The position numbers and the translations under genes are program-made. This document shows, piece after piece, positions 27,724 through 51,162 of a DNA stretch of 64,000 nucleotides (the stretch's first letter is position 1; every line of letters begins with the position of its first letter). The notes under the pieces are model-generated. The model ran no database searches. It was not told where the DNA came from and saw only the letters and a program-made list of their open reading frames with translations. The stretch spans positions 2,690,279 to 2,754,278 of the forward strand of contig NC_014212.1 in NCBI RefSeq assembly GCF_000092125.1, read 5' to 3'. The DNA comes from Allomeiothermus silvanus DSM 9946 (lineage in GTDB: Bacteria > Deinococcota > Deinococci > Deinococcales > Thermaceae).

Positions 27724-27911
27724 GTATCCTCCTCGACTCCTGGAAGGAGCCTGGTGTTTGGTTTTGAGAGTGGGGGCTCCCAACTGTTACGGCGAAAAAC
27801 GCTTCCCCTCGAGCGCCTCGGCGAGATTTTTAAGGCTTTAAGGTTTCGCCCAAAAGGCTTGCCCTCGCGCCCCTCGCTGTCTTAGGCCACCCCTACGGGT
27901 GCCAAGAAGAC
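27724..27911 (-). promoter_or_regulatory. rplJ mRNA leader (probable L10 autoregulatory region)
   Basis: About 180 nt lie between the promoter at 27912-27940 and the rplJ start. Several stems can be drawn, for example GGCACCCGTAGGGGTGGCC near 27885-27903. In many bacteria L10-L12 binds such a leader to limit its own synthesis. The specific binding fold was not confirmed here. Confidence 0.5.
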
Positions 27912-29008
27912 AGTATAGCAATCCACCTAAAAAGTCGCAAGTCCTTGTAATCGGTCAACACATTTGAGACTCTTTGAGGAACCGACTCCTCTTGCATCTT
28001 AGCCAAAAACTCCAGCGGAGCAAGACCCCCCAGGGCCATGTGAGGCCTTCGGCGGTTGTAGTAGTCCAGGTAGGTATCCAGCTCTGCCTGCAGCTCGCTG
28101 AGCGGGGTGGGCAAAGGCCGGGTGTAGAACTCCTCCTTGAAGGTCCGCTGCATCCGCTCCACGTGACCATTGAGTTTAGGACTCCTCGGCGGTAGCACAA
28201 ACAAGGCAATCCCCAGAGCACAGCAGGCCTCCTCAAACTCGGCCATGAACTCGCTGCCCCCATCCACCTGGATGGCCCGGATGGGAAAAGGGGCCCTGGC
28301 CAGAAGCAAGGACAAGAACCCCTCAGAAAGCTTAGCCGTGGCCCGGCTGTGCACCTCCGCCAGGACAAACCGGCTATGGAGGTCAATCGCCGAGAAGTGC
28401 TTGACCATGCTTCCCGGTCCTAAGGTCAGGGTGAGGGTGTCCACCTGGACCAGGTCCCCAGGAGCCCTGGCCTCGTATCCTCGGGGCTTCCTTTTGGCGT
28501 AGGGCCGGTTTACCCTTCGCTTTAGCTTCCCTCTTTGAGTCCGGGCCAGGTAGCCGGCCACGCTCTCGATACGTCGGTGCTTCTCCAGGTAGGCCAGGAT
28601 GCGCCCCACCGTGCGTTCGCTCATCTGGAAACCCTCCTTGCGGAGGGTAAGCCAGATGGACCAGCGTCCCCAGGTGGGGTTTTCCTTGCGGAGAGTTTCT
28701 ATTCTAATGAGCAGCCCTGGGGTCCAGTGGACCTTTGTGCGCAGGTGCTTAGGGCGGCGGGAGCGGGGTTTGAGTCCAGCCAGGCCCTTTTCTTTTAGGG
28801 CTTTTTGCCAGCGGTGGTAGGTGGCCCGGCTGATCCCGACCAGGTCCTGGATCTCCTTCCAGCTCTTTTTACTTTCACGCAGGGCTTTGACCAGTCGGAG
28901 CTTGCGCAGACGTTCCTGGACCTCTGGGTCGCTTGCGTTGGCCTCGGCCAGCCTCTGTGCTTGTCTAGCGCCTCTCCATATCTCTCGGCCAACGGTGGTA
29001 AACTGCAC
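27893..29008 (-). CDS. ISB transposase (copy 2), reads out of the element
   Basis: This IS481-type transposase has about 355 residues inside the element plus 17 beyond it. The N-terminal helix-turn-helix is SWKEIQDLVGISRATYHRW near residue 50. The integrase core has Asp in VQVDTLTL, Asp in IQVDGGSEF and Glu in NGHVERMQRTF, and ends YYNRRRPHMALGGL. The GTG start at 29008 has AAGGAGG ahead. The element ends inside the frame, after LTDY, without a stop; translation continues over the target duplication and the rplJ promoter to 27893. The copy is otherwise intact. Confidence 0.9.
   Translation of the reverse strand: MQFTTVGREIWRGARQAQRLAEANASDPEVQERLRKLRLVKALRESKKSWKEIQDLVGISRATYHRWQKALKEKGLAGLKPRSRRPKHLRTKVHWTPGLLIRIETLRKENPTWGRWSIWLTLRKEGFQMSERTVGRILAYLEKHRRIESVAGYLARTQRGKLKRRVNRPYAKRKPRGYEARAPGDLVQVDTLTLTLGPGSMVKHFSAIDLHSRFVLAEVHSRATAKLSEGFLSLLLARAPFPIRAIQVDGGSEFMAEFEEACCALGIALFVLPPRSPKLNGHVERMQRTFKEEFYTRPLPTPLSELQAELDTYLDYYNRRRPHMALGGLAPLEFLAKMQEESVPQRVSNVLTDYKDLRLFRWIAILSSWHP
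27912..27940 (-). promoter_or_regulatory. rplJL promoter
   Basis: On the minus strand TTGCGA (27935-27940), 17 bp, then TATACT (27912-27917) is a good housekeeping promoter. The target duplication of ISB copy 2 (27941-27945) touches the -35 directly. Confidence 0.75.
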
Positions 29009-29091: not shown

Positions 29092-30027
29092 CTAGCTCGT
29101 CTGCAACCCAAGTAAGCGCTCGAGCAGCCTCTTTGGCATCTTGCATACCATCGTGTAAGCCGGGTCAAAGACGTTGCCCAAGTCATAGCGCACACCCTGG
29201 CCCATCAGCAAGGAGGCTTGGGTGGTGTCCAAACCCCGCTGCTCGAGCCAGCGCAGCATCTCTGAAGTGGCGTGCTGCACGCACTGGTCGAGCGGGCGGG
29301 CATTGCCCACGGTGAAGATATATTCTTCGTTCTCGCCCCTCGGCCACTCGATCTTCTGCCCTTTAATCAGGTCCACGCTGAACCGCACCTCCATGGAAAC
29401 CTCGATGCCGGTCCCGCAAATTTCCCCGTCGCCTTGCAAAGCATGCCCGTCGCCAAGAAAAAAGAGTGCCCCCGGAACGAACACCGGGAAGTAGACCGTG
29501 ACCCCTTCGCGAAACCCTCGGTAATCCATGTTGCCGCCATGGGGGCCGGAAGTAGCGGTGGAGATGGCTTGATTACCCTCGGGAGCCACTCCGAAACAGC
29601 CCAGCATAGGCTCGAGCTCTAGTACCAAGCCGTGCAAGGGGCTTGCAGGGTGGTTGAGCCGGGCGGTTCCAGCTTTGGCATCCACCTCCCAGTCCCAGAC
29701 GAAGTATCCCCCGGCCTGGGCCAGCCTGCCCGCGTCGGTGGGCTCTACCACGTTAGGAGCGAGTAGCACCCCAGACCAGCCGCGCCGCCGGTTAGGGCGC
29801 AGGTGCTCCAGCTTTATCACTAGGGTGTCGCCGGGCTCAGCTCCCTCGATGAAGAATGGACCCGTCATGGGGTTGCCCCGCGGGGTAACAGGCTGGTCGT
29901 GCTCGTCGAAGCCTCGAGCGTCTACACAGGTGGTGATCACAGTATCGCCGGGTTGAATAGTCAGCACCGGGGGGTGAGAGCCTAGGGTATGGTGGTAGTG
30001 ATCCGGTTTAAACAAGCGAACGGCCAT
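29092..30027 (-). CDS. Acetamidase/formamidase-family protein
   Basis: This 311-residue amidohydrolase is of the FmdA/AmdA family, which releases ammonia from formamide or acetamide. Early motifs are VLTIQPGDTVITTCVDARG near residue 22 and MTGPFFIEGAEPGDTLVIK near 52. HGGNMDYRGFREGVTVYFPV near 172 and FLGDGHALQGDGEICGTGIE near 195 carry the metal-binding acidic and His residues. The start MAVRLFKPDHYH at 30027 leaves only 22 bp to the divergent CoxL-like gene. The neighbouring tryptophan dioxygenase makes a formamide (N-formylkynurenine), so a role there is conceivable but unproven. Confidence 0.87.
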   Translation of the reverse strand: MAVRLFKPDHYHHTLGSHPPVLTIQPGDTVITTCVDARGFDEHDQPVTPRGNPMTGPFFIEGAEPGDTLVIKLEHLRPNRRRGWSGVLLAPNVVEPTDAGRLAQAGGYFVWDWEVDAKAGTARLNHPASPLHGLVLELEPMLGCFGVAPEGNQAISTATSGPHGGNMDYRGFREGVTVYFPVFVPGALFFLGDGHALQGDGEICGTGIEVSMEVRFSVDLIKGQKIEWPRGENEEYIFTVGNARPLDQCVQHATSEMLRWLEQRGLDTTQASLLMGQGVRYDLGNVFDPAYTMVCKMPKRLLERLLGLQTS

Positions 30028-30049
30028 ATAGCGATAGCATATAAGGCGT
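30028..30049. promoter_or_regulatory. 22-bp divergent intergenic region with overlapping -10 boxes
   Basis: CATATA (30038-30043) ends six bases before the plus-strand ATG. TATGCT on the minus strand (30036-30041) lies eight bases before the minus-strand ATG. The two boxes overlap, so both genes appear leaderless and their promoters may exclude each other. Confidence 0.45.
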
Positions 30050-32347
30050 ATGTCTATCACCCTGGAAAACAAAACCCATGGCCGCTACATTGGCCAGTCG
30101 GTCAAGCGGCTCGAGGACGGAAAGTTCCTCACCGGGAAGGGAACCTACCTCGACGATTTGGCCCTCGAGGGCACGCTACACGTCGCGCTCGTACGTAGCC
30201 TCTATGCCCACGCCCGGATCGTAGGCATAAACACCCGTGAGGCCCTCCAGGTGCCCGGCGTGGTGGCGGTCTACACTGCCGCTGACCTACCCCCACTCTA
30301 CGCCCCGGGCTCGGGGGGACGCGATGCCAGGGTGGTGCGGCATCCGGTGCTAGCCCAGGGCATGGTGCGCTACGCTGGACAACCCGTAGCGGCGGTGTTG
30401 GCGACCTCGCGGGCCTCGGCCGAAGACGCACTGGGGCGGGTAGAGGTGGACTATGAAGCCCTCGAGGCTGTAGTCGACCCGCTGGTGGCGCTCGAGGATC
30501 GTACCCCAGTCCATCCCCAACTCGGTACCAACCGCGCCCTAGAGCGCAAGACCTCGGGCGGGGACGTAGCGGCAGCCTTCGCCACGGCCCACAAGGTGGT
30601 AGGGGCGCGGCTGGTGCAACAGCGCCTGGCCCCTACCCCAATGGAACCGCGCGGTGTGGTAGCCGCCTGGGACGGAGCGCACGAGGCCCTCACGATATGG
30701 TCGAGCACCCAGATGCCCCACGACCTCAGGAGCGAGGTAGCCGAAGCGCTAGGCCTGGCAGAGAACCAGGTGCGGGCCGTGACCCCCGATGTAGGTGGGG
30801 CTTTTGGGGCTAAGATCAACATCTATCCCGAAGAGATACTGGTGGCCTACCTGGCCCGCGTCTTGGCAAAGCCGATCAAGTGGGTGGAAAGCCGCTCCGA
30901 GAGCTTCGTGGCGACCATCCACGGTCGAGCCCAAGTCGCGGACTTGGAGATGGCCCTAGACCCAGAGGGAAAAATCCTGGGCCTACGCGGCCGGGTGGTG
31001 GCCGACCTGGGAGCCTACATCCTGGAGACCACCCTGGGCAACGCCCCCGGCACCCTCCTCATGCTGCAAGGCCCCTACGCAATCCCGGCGATAGAGGTAG
31101 AACTGGTTGCGGTGTACACCAACGCCACCCCCACCGGGGCTTACCGGGGCGCGGGGCGGCCCGAGGCTACCTACTACCTCGAGCGGCTGGTAGACATCGC
31201 CGCCCGCGAGCTGGGAATGGATCCCGCCGAGCTGAGGCTCAGAAACCTGATCCGGGGGCCCTTCCCCTACAAGACCCTCACCGGCGCCAAATACGACAGC
31301 GGGGCCTACCCTGAGACCTTGCACAAGCTGCTCGAGCTGGCCGATTACAAAGCCCTGCGGGCCGAACAGGCCAGGGCACGGGCCGAGGGCCGCCTGCTGG
31401 GAATCGGGCTCACTACCTACGTAGAGATCACCGGTTACGGCTGGGACACCGGTGGGGTGCGCATCAACCCCGACGGCAGCGCCTTGGTCTTCACCGGCAC
31501 CTCGCCCCATGGGCAGGGCACCGGCACCGGCTTCGCTCAGATCGTGGCCGAGCGGCTGGGTATCCCCTTGGAGCGGATTCACATCGTGCAGGGCGATACC
31601 CTGGCCATCCCCTACGGCATGGGCACCGCTGGCAGCCGCACGCTATCGGTAGGGGGCTCGGCCATTCTGAACGCGGCGGAGAAGGTGGCCGAGAAGGTGA
31701 AGCGCATCGCCGCCCACCTCTTGGAGGCTGCCCCCGAGGATATCACACTGACCGAGGCGGGCTGGGGGGTGCGCGGCACCGATAAGGCGGTGAGCCTCGA
31801 GCAGGTCGCGCAGGCCGCCTACAATCCCCGCAAGCTGCCTGCGGATCTAGAACCGGGGCTCGAGGGCCAGGCCACCTTCACCCTCAAGGAGGCCAACTAT
31901 CCTTTCGGAGCGCACTTGGCCGTAGTCGAAGTGAGCCGGGAGACCGGAGAGGTACGGGTGCTGCGGTATGTCGCGCTCGACGATGTGGGGCCGCTGGTGA
32001 ACCCGAGGCTCGTCGAAGGGCAACAGCAAGGCGGGGTGGCGCAGGGGCTTGGGCAGGCGCTTTACGAGGGCATCCGCTACGACGAAAGCGGGCAGAGCCA
32101 CAGCACCAGCCTCCTTGAGTACAACCTCCCCCGCGCCGACCAAATGGTGTGGGTAGAGGCCCACCACGGCGATACCCGCTCCCCTACCAACCCGCTAGGC
32201 GTGAAGGGGATTGGCGAGGCGGGGGCCATCGGGGCCACCCCCGCGGTGGTCAACGCGGTGATGGACGCGCTGGGCATCAAGCACCTGGACATGCCGCTCA
32301 CGCCGGAGAAAGTGTGGCGGGCACTGCGGCAGGAGTTGGGGCGATGA
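30050..32347 (+). CDS. Molybdenum hydroxylase large subunit (CoxL/xanthine dehydrogenase-like)
   Basis: This 765-residue molybdopterin-binding subunit of the xanthine oxidase family opens with IGQSVKRLEDGKFLTGKGTYLDDL. VGGAFGAKINIYPEE lies near residue 255. The active-site loop AYRGAGRPEATYYLERLVD near 365 is of the type II, non-AYxCSFR kind. GVKGIGEAGAIGATPAVVNA at the end carries the catalytic Glu. No small FeS or FAD subunit gene lies beside it, unlike the cluster at 47-51 kb, so partners must come from elsewhere. Its stop overlaps the dioxygenase start (ATGA). The substrate is unknown; an N-heteroaromatic tryptophan catabolite is one guess. Confidence 0.9.
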   Translation: MSITLENKTHGRYIGQSVKRLEDGKFLTGKGTYLDDLALEGTLHVALVRSLYAHARIVGINTREALQVPGVVAVYTAADLPPLYAPGSGGRDARVVRHPVLAQGMVRYAGQPVAAVLATSRASAEDALGRVEVDYEALEAVVDPLVALEDRTPVHPQLGTNRALERKTSGGDVAAAFATAHKVVGARLVQQRLAPTPMEPRGVVAAWDGAHEALTIWSSTQMPHDLRSEVAEALGLAENQVRAVTPDVGGAFGAKINIYPEEILVAYLARVLAKPIKWVESRSESFVATIHGRAQVADLEMALDPEGKILGLRGRVVADLGAYILETTLGNAPGTLLMLQGPYAIPAIEVELVAVYTNATPTGAYRGAGRPEATYYLERLVDIAARELGMDPAELRLRNLIRGPFPYKTLTGAKYDSGAYPETLHKLLELADYKALRAEQARARAEGRLLGIGLTTYVEITGYGWDTGGVRINPDGSALVFTGTSPHGQGTGTGFAQIVAERLGIPLERIHIVQGDTLAIPYGMGTAGSRTLSVGGSAILNAAEKVAEKVKRIAAHLLEAAPEDITLTEAGWGVRGTDKAVSLEQVAQAAYNPRKLPADLEPGLEGQATFTLKEANYPFGAHLAVVEVSRETGEVRVLRYVALDDVGPLVNPRLVEGQQQGGVAQGLGQALYEGIRYDESGQSHSTSLLEYNLPRADQMVWVEAHHGDTRSPTNPLGVKGIGEAGAIGATPAVVNAVMDALGIKHLDMPLTPEKVWRALRQELGR

Positions 32348-33174
32348 AAGACGAAAAGGTGTACCAGGAAGCCTACACCGACTTCCGCCACGCGCTCTCC
32401 TACGGGGATTACCTCTCCCTCGAGACCCTCCTCGCTGCGCAGAAGCCCCTCACCGAAGCCCATGACGAGATGCTCTTCATCGTCATTCACCACGTCCAGG
32501 AACTCTGGATGAAGCTCTTGATCCACGAGCTGAAGAGCGCGATGAAGCTCTTGGAGCAGGACATCATCGACCCGGCCCTCAAGATGCTGACCCGGGTCTG
32601 CCGCGCCCAGGAGCAGATGGCTGCCAGTTGGGAAGTGCTCAAGACCATGACCCCCGCTGACTACCTGGAGTTTCGCTCGAGCTTCGGGCAGGCCTCGGGG
32701 TTCCAGTCACACCAATACCGACTCATCGAGTTCCTGCTGGGCAACAAAAATCCCTTCATGATGCGCCCTCACCAGCACCACCCCCAGCACTACGGGCTCT
32801 TGGAGGATGCGCTCAAGGCCCCAAGCCTCTACGACCTCGCGCTGCAGATCCTGGCCAAGCGGGGCCTCACGGTCCCCAGGGAGGTCCTCGAGCGGGATTA
32901 CGCGAAGCCGTATGAGCCCCATCCGGCGGTGCTCCAAGCCTGGCTCAGCGTGTACCGCAACACGCTCGAGCACTGGGATCTGTACTATTTGGCCGAGAAA
33001 CTCATTGACGTAGAGGATAACTTCCGCCGATGGCGCTTTAATCACCTGGTCACCGTAGAGCGGATGATCGGCCACAAACGCGGGAGCGGGGGCACGGCGG
33101 GGGTGGGGTATCTAAAAAAGGTGCTTGAGGTGGTGCTATTCCCCGAGCTGTGGCAGGTACGCACCGAGTTGTGA
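32344..33174 (+). CDS. kynA: Tryptophan 2,3-dioxygenase
   Basis: This 276-residue haem enzyme opens the indole ring of L-tryptophan to N-formylkynurenine. FIVIHHVQELWMKLL near residue 50 contains the active-site His. FQSHQYRLIEFLLGNKN near 120 contains the substrate-contacting Arg. The haem-ligand His is in RMIGHKRGSGGTAGVGYL near 245. The ATG overlaps the TGA of the upstream hydroxylase gene, so translation is coupled, which is an unusual pairing. Other kynurenine-pathway genes are not in the window, except possibly the divergent formamidase-family gene. Confidence 0.95.
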   Translation: MKDEKVYQEAYTDFRHALSYGDYLSLETLLAAQKPLTEAHDEMLFIVIHHVQELWMKLLIHELKSAMKLLEQDIIDPALKMLTRVCRAQEQMAASWEVLKTMTPADYLEFRSSFGQASGFQSHQYRLIEFLLGNKNPFMMRPHQHHPQHYGLLEDALKAPSLYDLALQILAKRGLTVPREVLERDYAKPYEPHPAVLQAWLSVYRNTLEHWDLYYLAEKLIDVEDNFRRWRFNHLVTVERMIGHKRGSGGTAGVGYLKKVLEVVLFPELWQVRTEL

Positions 33175-34853: not shown

Positions 34854-35828
34854 TTATTCTGCCCCCTCGCTGCTTTCGCGCAGCGAAACACACGCTTCGA
34901 GGATCGCTCGAACCGCCTCTATCACCTTCGCCCGCAATCCTATAGGCTCCAGCACCCTCACTTTTGGCCCTAAACTGAGCACCCAAGCCAAGGCATCCTC
35001 CTCCACCTCGAAGCGAATCTGCGCCTCGAGCCAGCCCTCCTCCACCGGCGCGGCCCGCAGGAGCCGCGCCCAGCGGCCCATCAGGCCAAAGCGCTCAAGC
35101 GCCTTCTGCTCGACCTGCACCCGCACGTCATAGCGGGGCAACTGCTCTTTGAGTTCGGTCTGCGACCGCTCCCAAAAGCTTTGCAGATCAAAGTCGGGGG
35201 GTCGAATCGCAGGCTCGAGGCTCAGGCGGGCCTCCTGGACGCGGGAGACCCGGTAAGTGCGGTAATCGTCACCGTTCCAGGCCACCAGATACCAGGTACT
35301 CCCCTTGGCGACCAGCCCCAGCGGGTCGAGCAGGCGTTCGCTGATTTTCCCGTCGTTGCGTCGGTAGATCGTGTGCAGCTTGCGGTTTCGCCAGAGGGCC
35401 TCGAGCAGGGTCGGCAGGTGGGGGACCGGCTCGGCGGCCCCCCTGGGTTCGATGTAGATTCGCCCCCGCACCGACTCGGCCTCGCGGCGGTATAAGGCGG
35501 GCAGGCTCGCCAGCAGCTTGATCCAGGCCCCTTCAGAAGCCCTCGAGAGCCCCAGATCCTCGAGCAGACGGTTCGGCTGCCCCACCAGCAGCGCTTGGAC
35601 CTCGCCGGGTTTGAGCCCGGTGAGGTCGGTGCGGTAATCCGCTAGGAGCCGCCAGCCGCCCCGCGAACCCCGCTCGGCGTACACCGGCACCCCGGCAGCG
35701 GTGAGGGCTTCCATGTCGCGGTGGATGGTGCGCTCGGAGACCTCGAGGCGCTCGGCGAGCTGTCTCGAGGTAACCCGCCCCCGAATCTGCAGGATCAACA
35801 GGATGGACAACAGCCGGTCGGCCCGCAT
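34854..35828 (-). CDS. HTH/WYL-domain transcriptional regulator
   Basis: This 324-residue regulator begins with an HTH_11 winged helix (RADRLLSILLILQIRGRVTS, then LAERLEVSERTIHRDMEAL). A WYL domain lies at about residues 135-220 (RLLDPLGLVAKGSTWYLVAW), with a WCX-type C-terminal domain after it. The ATG at 35828 starts just before the helix-turn-helix; an upstream extension is possible but unlikely. WYL regulators usually sense a ligand and often repress a divergent neighbour. Here that is the dehydrogenase gene at 35901, and a palindrome sits between them. Confidence 0.9.
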   Translation of the reverse strand: MRADRLLSILLILQIRGRVTSRQLAERLEVSERTIHRDMEALTAAGVPVYAERGSRGGWRLLADYRTDLTGLKPGEVQALLVGQPNRLLEDLGLSRASEGAWIKLLASLPALYRREAESVRGRIYIEPRGAAEPVPHLPTLLEALWRNRKLHTIYRRNDGKISERLLDPLGLVAKGSTWYLVAWNGDDYRTYRVSRVQEARLSLEPAIRPPDFDLQSFWERSQTELKEQLPRYDVRVQVEQKALERFGLMGRWARLLRAAPVEEGWLEAQIRFEVEEDALAWVLSLGPKVRVLEPIGLRAKVIEAVRAILEACVSLRESSEGAE

Positions 35829-35850
35829 GAGCCCATTGTGCTCCCAAATT

Positions 35851-35867
35851 ATGACAGGAGATGTCAT
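35851..35867. promoter_or_regulatory. Candidate operator between WYL regulator and SDR
   Basis: ATGACA-GGAGA-TGTCAT is a perfect palindrome with 6-bp arms in the 72-bp divergent gap. It overlaps the likely -10 region (CATATA) of the dehydrogenase gene, so it is a natural binding site for the WYL protein. Confidence 0.5.
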
Positions 35868-35900
35868 ATATGGCGGCTAGGCTCGAGTAAGGAGGTGAAC

Positions 35901-36824
35901 ATGAGTCTCGAAGGCAAGGTGGCGGTGGTGGCGGGGGCAACCCGGGGCTGCGGGCGCGGAATAGCGGTCGAGTTGGGTGCGGCGGGAACAACCGTGTACT
36001 GTACGGGGCGCAGCACCCGCGGTAATCCCTCCGACCTGAACCGTCCGGAGAGCATCGAGGAGACTGCTGAACTCGTCACGAAGGCGGGCGGGATAGGGAT
36101 CGCAGTGCGGGTGGACCACACCCAGGAAGATCAGGTCAAGGCCCTCTTCGAGCGCGTGCGGGCCGAGCAGAACGGGCGGCTCGACATCTTGGTGAACGAC
36201 GTGTGGGGTGGAGATCCTCTGGTCGAATGGGGCAAGCCCTTTTGGGAGTTGGACGTGGCCCAGGGGTGGAGGCTCCTAGAGCGCTCGGTCTACAGCCATA
36301 TCCTTACCAGCCGCTACGCCGTCCCGCTGATGGTCGAGCGCGACGCAGGGCTCATCGTCGAGGTCACCGATGGCGACGGGCTGCACTACCGGGGCAACTT
36401 CTTCTACGACCTCGTCAAGACTACCGTGATCCGGCTGGCCTACGCGATGGCGGAGGAGTTCAAGGGCAAACGCATCAACGTCAATGGCGAGCCCGACTCC
36501 ACCGCCGCCAACATCACCGCGGTGGCCCTCACCCCCGGCTTCCTGCGCTCGGAAGCGATGTTGGATCACTTCGGCGTGACCGAGGCCAACTGGCGGGATG
36601 CCATTGCCAAAGACCCCTACTACGCCGAGTCGGAGACCCCCCACTACATCGGGCGGGCAGTGGTGGCGCTGGCCTGTGACCCCAACGTCCACCAAAAAGC
36701 CGGAAAGGCCCTGGCGACCTGGCACCTCTCGAGGGAGTACGGCTTCAAGGACATTGACGGCAGGCAACCCCACTGGCAGGAGTTCTTCGACCGGATGCAA
36801 GCGCGAAAGTCAAGCGTCGAATAA
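35901..36824 (+). CDS. Short-chain dehydrogenase/reductase
   Basis: This 307-residue NAD(P)-dependent oxidoreductase has the cofactor motif VVAGATRGCGRGIA near residue 9 (TGxxxGxG variant) and ILVNDVWGGDP near 97 in place of NNAG. The usual YxxxK is replaced by a FFYDLVKTTVIR segment near 170, with Tyr and Lys kept. It is longer than the common 250 residues because of a C-terminal extension (DIDGRQPHWQEFF). GGAGGTGAAC precedes the ATG. It is probably controlled by the divergent WYL regulator. Substrate unknown. Confidence 0.88.
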   Translation: MSLEGKVAVVAGATRGCGRGIAVELGAAGTTVYCTGRSTRGNPSDLNRPESIEETAELVTKAGGIGIAVRVDHTQEDQVKALFERVRAEQNGRLDILVNDVWGGDPLVEWGKPFWELDVAQGWRLLERSVYSHILTSRYAVPLMVERDAGLIVEVTDGDGLHYRGNFFYDLVKTTVIRLAYAMAEEFKGKRINVNGEPDSTAANITAVALTPGFLRSEAMLDHFGVTEANWRDAIAKDPYYAESETPHYIGRAVVALACDPNVHQKAGKALATWHLSREYGFKDIDGRQPHWQEFFDRMQARKSSVE

Positions 36825-50334: not shown

Positions 50335-51162
50335 ATGTACACCGCTCCTTTTACCTACCAAAGGGCCTCGAGCCTACAAGAAGCCATCCAGATGTTGCAG
50401 CAAAACCCCGATGCCAAGCTCTTAGCGGGGGGGCACTCGCTCATTCCCGCCATGAAGCTGCGCCTGGCCCAGCCCTCTATGCTCATCGACATCTCTAAGG
50501 TGGCCGAGTTGAAGAGCATTCACCTGGAGGGAAACACCCTGGTGATCGGGGCCGCCGCCACCTACTACGAGATCGCCAGCAATGACCAGGTTAAACAGGC
50601 CGCTCCCATCCTGGCCGATGTCATCCAGCACATCGGCGACCCCATGGTGCGCCACAAAGGCACCCTGGGTGGCTCGCTGGCCCACGCCGACCCTGCCGCC
50701 GACCTTCCGGCAGCAGTGCTCGCGCTGGAGGCCAAGATGAAGATTCAGGGGCCCGGCGGGAGCCGTGTGGTAGATGCGGCTGACTTCTTCCAGGGGATGT
50801 TCACCACCGCCGTGGGACCGGGCGAAATCCTCACCGAAATCCACATCCCGGCCAACGCGGGCAAGCAGGCTTACGAGAAGTTCCCCCACCCGGCCTCGCG
50901 CTACCCGGTGGTGGGGGTGGCGGTGGTGGTCGGGGCGAATGGGGTACGGGCCGCCCTCACCGGGGCGGGCGAGCGGGCCATGCGGCTTCCCAAGCTCGAG
51001 CAGGCCCTGGCCGGAAAACCCCTCACCGCTGAGGCCATCGAGGCCGCCTGTCAGGGCATCGTGAGCCCACAGGAGCTGATGGGCGACCACCTCCACTCCG
51101 CTGAGTACCGCGCCCATCTCGTGGACGTGCTGGCCAAAAAAGCCCTGATGCGGCTAATTTAG
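50335..51162 (+). CDS. coxM: Molybdenum hydroxylase FAD subunit
   Basis: This 275-residue flavin-binding subunit carries AKLLAGGHSLIPAMKLRLAQ near residue 27, the FAD-binding AGGxS motif, and the second motif GTLGGSLAHADPAADLPA near 105 (TxGGNxxxAxPxxD type). It takes electrons from CoxS and passes them to the respiratory chain. The ATG at 50335 has ACCGGAGG upstream. It completes the S-L-M enzyme. Confidence 0.93.
   Translation: MYTAPFTYQRASSLQEAIQMLQQNPDAKLLAGGHSLIPAMKLRLAQPSMLIDISKVAELKSIHLEGNTLVIGAAATYYEIASNDQVKQAAPILADVIQHIGDPMVRHKGTLGGSLAHADPAADLPAAVLALEAKMKIQGPGGSRVVDAADFFQGMFTTAVGPGEILTEIHIPANAGKQAYEKFPHPASRYPVVGVAVVVGANGVRAALTGAGERAMRLPKLEQALAGKPLTAEAIEAACQGIVSPQELMGDHLHSAEYRAHLVDVLAKKALMRLI

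Follow-up and report, generated by a model that had tools for sequence, protein, structure and literature searches.

In Deinococcus-Thermus, leaderless genes that carry a -10 motif were reportedly treated in earlier work by de Groot et al. in 2014 and Zheng et al. in 2011, and prokaryotic bidirectional promoters with symmetrical -10 elements were reportedly described by Warman et al. in 2021. According to Zhong et al. 2025 (PMC12340547), the leaderless -10 motif has been shown experimentally to be phylum-wide, and about 30% of the phylum's ORFs have such a motif, their mRNA being leaderless. For bidirectional promoters, the published accounts give reciprocal -7T/-11A positions and a distance of 18 bp between start sites (PMC10268837), distances of 10 and 23 bp as also common (PMC12825309), and a range of 7-25 bp between divergent start sites for promoters of the Warman type. 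Warman et al. 2026 (PMC12825309) report that in E. coli competition between the two directions was found in none of five promoters at basal activity, and that repression appeared only once the other side was strongly activated.

The window analysed here, a stretch of 64,000 nucleotides, lies on a chromosome of 3,249,394 bases in a Thermaceae genome of 3,721,669 bases, and contains an FmdA-family gene and a CoxL-like gene that diverge across a short gap (Table 1). Both resemble the leaderless genes of the phylum in having TANNNT a few bp upstream of the start codon, in lacking a Shine-Dalgarno site and in needing no -35 element. Unlike typical members of that group they are arranged divergently across 22 bp, with fused boxes, and their box-to-ATG spacings, while within the range of 6-9 nt in which TANNNT is enriched in this genome, are 8 (FmdA) and 9 (CoxL) where 6-7 is commonest. 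The gap resembles the published bidirectional promoters in that -10 elements on opposite strands overlap, share reciprocal -7T/-11A positions and predict start sites about 18-23 bp apart; it differs from them in that both predicted products would be leaderless mRNAs and the start codons bound the promoter. Among the papers listed by searches of mostly open-access literature, none dealt with a -10 box shared between two leaderless genes. The 22 bp probably act as a compact promoter serving both directions, each gene being leaderless or nearly so, and the two genes very probably have a single near-symmetrical promoter box in common. The locus is an unusually compact example of two things already described, leaderless genes and bidirectional promoters.

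Table 1. Positions in the window of the divergent genes and of the predicted promoter features between them.
Feature	Position	Strand	Evidence
Acetamidase/formamidase-family (FmdA_AmdA) gene, start ATG at 30027-30025	29092..30027	-	Pfam PF03069, 111.7 bits against a cut-off of 27
Intergenic region of 22 bp, which would hold both leaderless promoters	30028..30049		Sequence; 19/22 bases the same in G001
Most likely -10 box of the CoxL-like gene, TAGCAT, 9 nt before the ATG	30035..30040	+	TANNNT in 21/21 CoxL orthologues
-10 box of the FmdA-family gene, TATGCT, 8 nt before the ATG	30036..30041	-	15/15 Thermaceae orthologues, spacing 7-9
Alternative plus-strand boxes CATATA (30038-30043) and TATAAG (30040-30045)	30038..30045	+	Neither is TANNNT
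CoxL-like molybdopterin-binding large subunit gene, start ATG at 30050-30052	30050..32347	+	Pfam PF02738, PF20256, PF01315
Tryptophan 2,3-dioxygenase gene	32344..33174	+	TIGR03036, 409.9 bits against a cut-off of 390.7

The FmdA-family protein scored 66 bits against the NCBIfam FmdA equivalog, under the cut-off of 500 bits, and the best NCBIfam match of the CoxL-like protein was glyceraldehyde dehydrogenase subunit alpha (NF041018; 775.6 bits, slightly below the cut-off of 790). The CoxL-like stop codon and the tryptophan 2,3-dioxygenase start codon overlap as ATGA (32344-32347), so the two genes are probably carried on one transcript. With this dioxygenase behind the CoxL-like gene and an FmdA-type amidase opposite, the locus may conceivably be linked to the breakdown of tryptophan or formamide. 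The CoxL-like subunit itself appears to be an orphan: the FAD-subunit family PF00941 has only two matches in the genome, and both sit elsewhere, one at about 50347-50853 of the window, adjoining another CoxL-like gene, and the other near 1.77 Mb of the chromosome. An IS481-like transposase gene (27893-29008; NCBIfam 212.7 bits, cut-off 224) lies immediately downstream of the FmdA-family gene.

A preliminary description of this DNA had placed the start codons at ATG 30027 (minus) and ATG 30050 (plus) with 22 bp between them, had seen no clear Shine-Dalgarno site for either gene, and had judged that both look leaderless. The start positions agree with the sequence and with the N-termini of relatives: in 13 Thermaceae pairs the FmdA proteins share a conserved N-terminal stretch at which all of them begin, and for CoxL no ATG, GTG or TTG other than the ATG at 30050 lies between an in-frame TAG (30035) and the conserved region. 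A later start for FmdA or CoxL, and the upstream TTG at 30072, were ruled out by the relatives' N-termini. No Shine-Dalgarno site is conserved in either gene; the sole partial match, AAGG at 30043-30046, lies 3 nt from the CoxL ATG, which is too close, and reads AAAG in G001. As far as sequence comparison reaches, the predicted leaderless or nearly leaderless starts and the shared -10 positions are also well supported, by the genome statistics and by the relatives considered below.

The description had further proposed overlapping -10 boxes, TATGCT on the minus strand and CATATA on the plus strand, with a common segment at 30036-30043. The minus-strand box and the overlap as such were retained; on the plus strand TAGCAT fits better, and the boxes overlap at 30036-30040. 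CATATA was set aside since it is not TANNNT, the motif enriched before starts in this genome, and since Calidithermus homologues have TAGCAT at the corresponding place; it is nevertheless a possible plus-strand -10 element, with a spacing of 6 as in most CoxL orthologues. TAGCAT and TATGCT together form one 7-bp near-palindrome, TAGCATA (30035-30041), in which the boxes are shifted by one base relative to each other. A30036 is the -11A for CoxL and pairs with the -7T for FmdA, and T30040 does the reverse, so that these two positions supply the reciprocal -7T/-11A on both strands. Overlap is unavoidable given the 22-bp gap and spacings of 6-9, because any pair of boxes so placed overlaps by at least 2 bp; with the genes this close together it therefore needs no special explanation. 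A discriminator of 6-7 nt would put the plus-strand start on C30047 or a neighbouring G, not on the preferred A. With starts at 30047 and 30029, T30029 would serve the plus direction as the -18 T, a common and not obligatory feature, and the minus direction would be without one, as 30047 is C. Candidate -35 elements 15-19 bp upstream of all candidate boxes gave at best 2/6 matches on both sides, no better than random positions, and a promoter scan of 29500-30600 returned 0 sigma-70-type sites. Neither an extended -10 that would make either direction strong nor an activator site was seen at the locus.

Motif frequencies were determined in 764 kb of this genome, comprising the window and 35 stretches of 20 kb (5000 bases read N), in which a simple gene caller found 736 genes and 85.7% coding sequence. 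TANNNT lay 6-9 nt before the ATG in 119/507 ATG genes, compared with 28/2077 internal in-frame ATGs; at spacings of 6, 7, 8 and 9 the counts were 57, 32, 17 and 20 for genes, and 11, 14, 3 and 0 for internal ATGs. The proportion among genes is close to the figure of about 30% given in the phylum-wide study (PMC12340547), and enrichment at these spacings was present in all three gene-calling versions, the other two comprising 282 genes in 364 kb and 405 genes in 764 kb (the latter without the pair itself). Because TANNNT is enriched before the genome's ATG genes, both boxes resemble the phylum's ordinary leaderless-gene promoters. Ninety-three CAT-N22-ATG strings occur in the 764 kb, and the one at this locus alone carries TANNNT 6-9 nt from the start codon on each strand; when the letters of the 22 bp were shuffled, that arrangement arose in 2.1% of cases. 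Among 91 called divergent pairs, a gap of 16-30 bp was seen in two, and overlapping boxes on both sides only in the FmdA/CoxL pair. Boxes on both sides, overlapping or separate, were present in 7/91 pairs against about five expected from single-gene rates, and this similarity counts against special design. One of these seven pairs (L168, 15182-17115) has a gap of 62 bp and the boxes TAGCAT and TACAAT. A called divergent pair with a gap of only 18 bp (L169, 2327-4177) has no TANNNT at spacing 6-9. Another tight divergent pair, at 35828-35901, joins a WYL-domain regulator and a gene with the N-terminus MSLEGKVAVV; the latter is Shine-Dalgarno led, unlike the FmdA/CoxL pair, because AAGGAGGT precedes its ATG at 35901.

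Fifty Thermaceae genomes were searched with the FmdA protein. Seventeen gave matches, 15 of which, the window's own included, were taken as orthologues at an identity of at least 74%; the weak, remote hits in G029 and G047 were left out, as were the second matches of G005 and G011. For CoxL, G020 (contig end) and G013, G040 and G047 (best match only a paralogue) were left out, and the 21 orthologues examined were those with an intact 5' end. The CoxL-like gene is divergent from and adjacent to FmdA in 13/15 genomes, and the two are on different contigs in G005 and G011. The boxes persist where FmdA and CoxL are not neighbours (Table 1), so each box belongs to its own gene. The CoxL box stands at spacing 6 in 17/21 orthologues (G010 also has one at 9), and at 9 only in four (G000, which is the window genome, G001, G014 and G007). 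ATG-to-ATG gaps in the 13 pairs were 22, 22, 47, 60, 60, 60, 61, 68, 78, 138, 181, 190 and 456 bp; the boxes are fused only in the window genome and G001, of the same genus, and are separate in the 11 pairs with gaps of 47-456 bp. A CoxL-like gene was near 6/80 FmdA-family loci from named genomes, some of which end at contig ends, and all six were in Meiothermus or Calidithermus.

Both genomes with fused boxes have gaps of 22 bp, in which 19 bases are identical, including a run of 12 at 30033-30044. Fourfold sites are identical in 265/405 cases in CoxL and 70/138 in FmdA. Comparison of the intergenic count with the CoxL fourfold sites (binomial p about 0.03) is only suggestive of constraint on the 22-bp region. 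In a tree of 19 CoxL proteins, built without G017, whose frame is broken, and without the truncated copies of G007 and G020, G001 groups with two Calidithermus proteins (97/96) and not with G000. The 22-bp state may have arisen once in this genus, or may be older and have been lost in Calidithermus.

Under the preferred reading, RNA polymerase with the primary sigma factor would recognise the near-symmetrical TAGCATA in either orientation. TAGCAT would drive the CoxL-like gene and, behind it, that for tryptophan dioxygenase, and TATGCT on the opposite strand would drive the FmdA-family gene. The predicted transcript starts coincide with the AUGs or lie no more than about 4 nt from them, and ribosomes would therefore initiate without a Shine-Dalgarno site. 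We infer that both start sites are used; the box positions, their conservation and their genome-wide enrichment are observed. Counting against this reading are the CoxL spacing of 9, unlike that of 17/21 orthologues, the lack of any -35 match above 2/6, the empty sigma-70 scan, the plus-strand start that a 6-7 nt discriminator would place off the preferred A, and the only suggestive level of conservation between G000 and G001.

Three other readings of the gap were weighed. That the boxes are AT-rich matches without function draws on the frequency of both-strand boxes in shuffles of so short and AT-rich a gap and on the near-expected number of divergent pairs with boxes on both sides, but the restricted spacings at which the boxes are held in all 15 FmdA and all 21 CoxL orthologues make this highly improbable. 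Transcription from the shared box might instead run in one direction only, the other gene being served by a promoter inside the opposite gene and its mRNA having a leader. The FmdA frame is indeed open upstream to the TTG at 30072, and the unusual CoxL spacing also fits; yet both boxes are kept at start-proximal spacing in orthologues, including those in which the genes lie apart, no conserved Shine-Dalgarno site awaits a leadered transcript, and the promoter scan of 29500-30600 was empty, so this arrangement is unlikely.

The preliminary description had gone further and proposed a built-in switch, in which polymerase in one direction represses the other gene and two catabolic genes alternate. 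With overlapping boxes two polymerases cannot bind at once, and in E. coli one side can be repressed when the other is strongly activated (PMC12825309). That two polymerases physically exclude each other is likely, but such exclusion does not alone make a regulatory switch. All five E. coli promoters tested in that study were free of competition at basal activity, and neither a -35 element nor an activator site is evident here. Because the overlap is absent in 11/13 divergent pairs, a switch would not be a conserved purpose of the pair. The proposal is thus not supported; the switch is unproven and, on present evidence, unlikely, with odds that we would put below those of one-directional use. 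A near-minimal natural divergon may also be considered, though we hold it doubtful: two once-independent leaderless promoters would share a 7-bp box, with start codons bounding the promoter and upstream contacts inside the opposite coding sequence, and strong induction of one gene would occlude the other.

The locus alone alters no accepted view. With its probable compact bidirectional promoter it neatly brings together, within 22 bp of native sequence, leaderless genes and symmetrical -10 boxes, both known phenomena. Close relatives keep the boxes apart, and the natural series of gaps (22, 47-78 and 138-456 bp) would allow polymerase interference to be tested against distance with native promoters.
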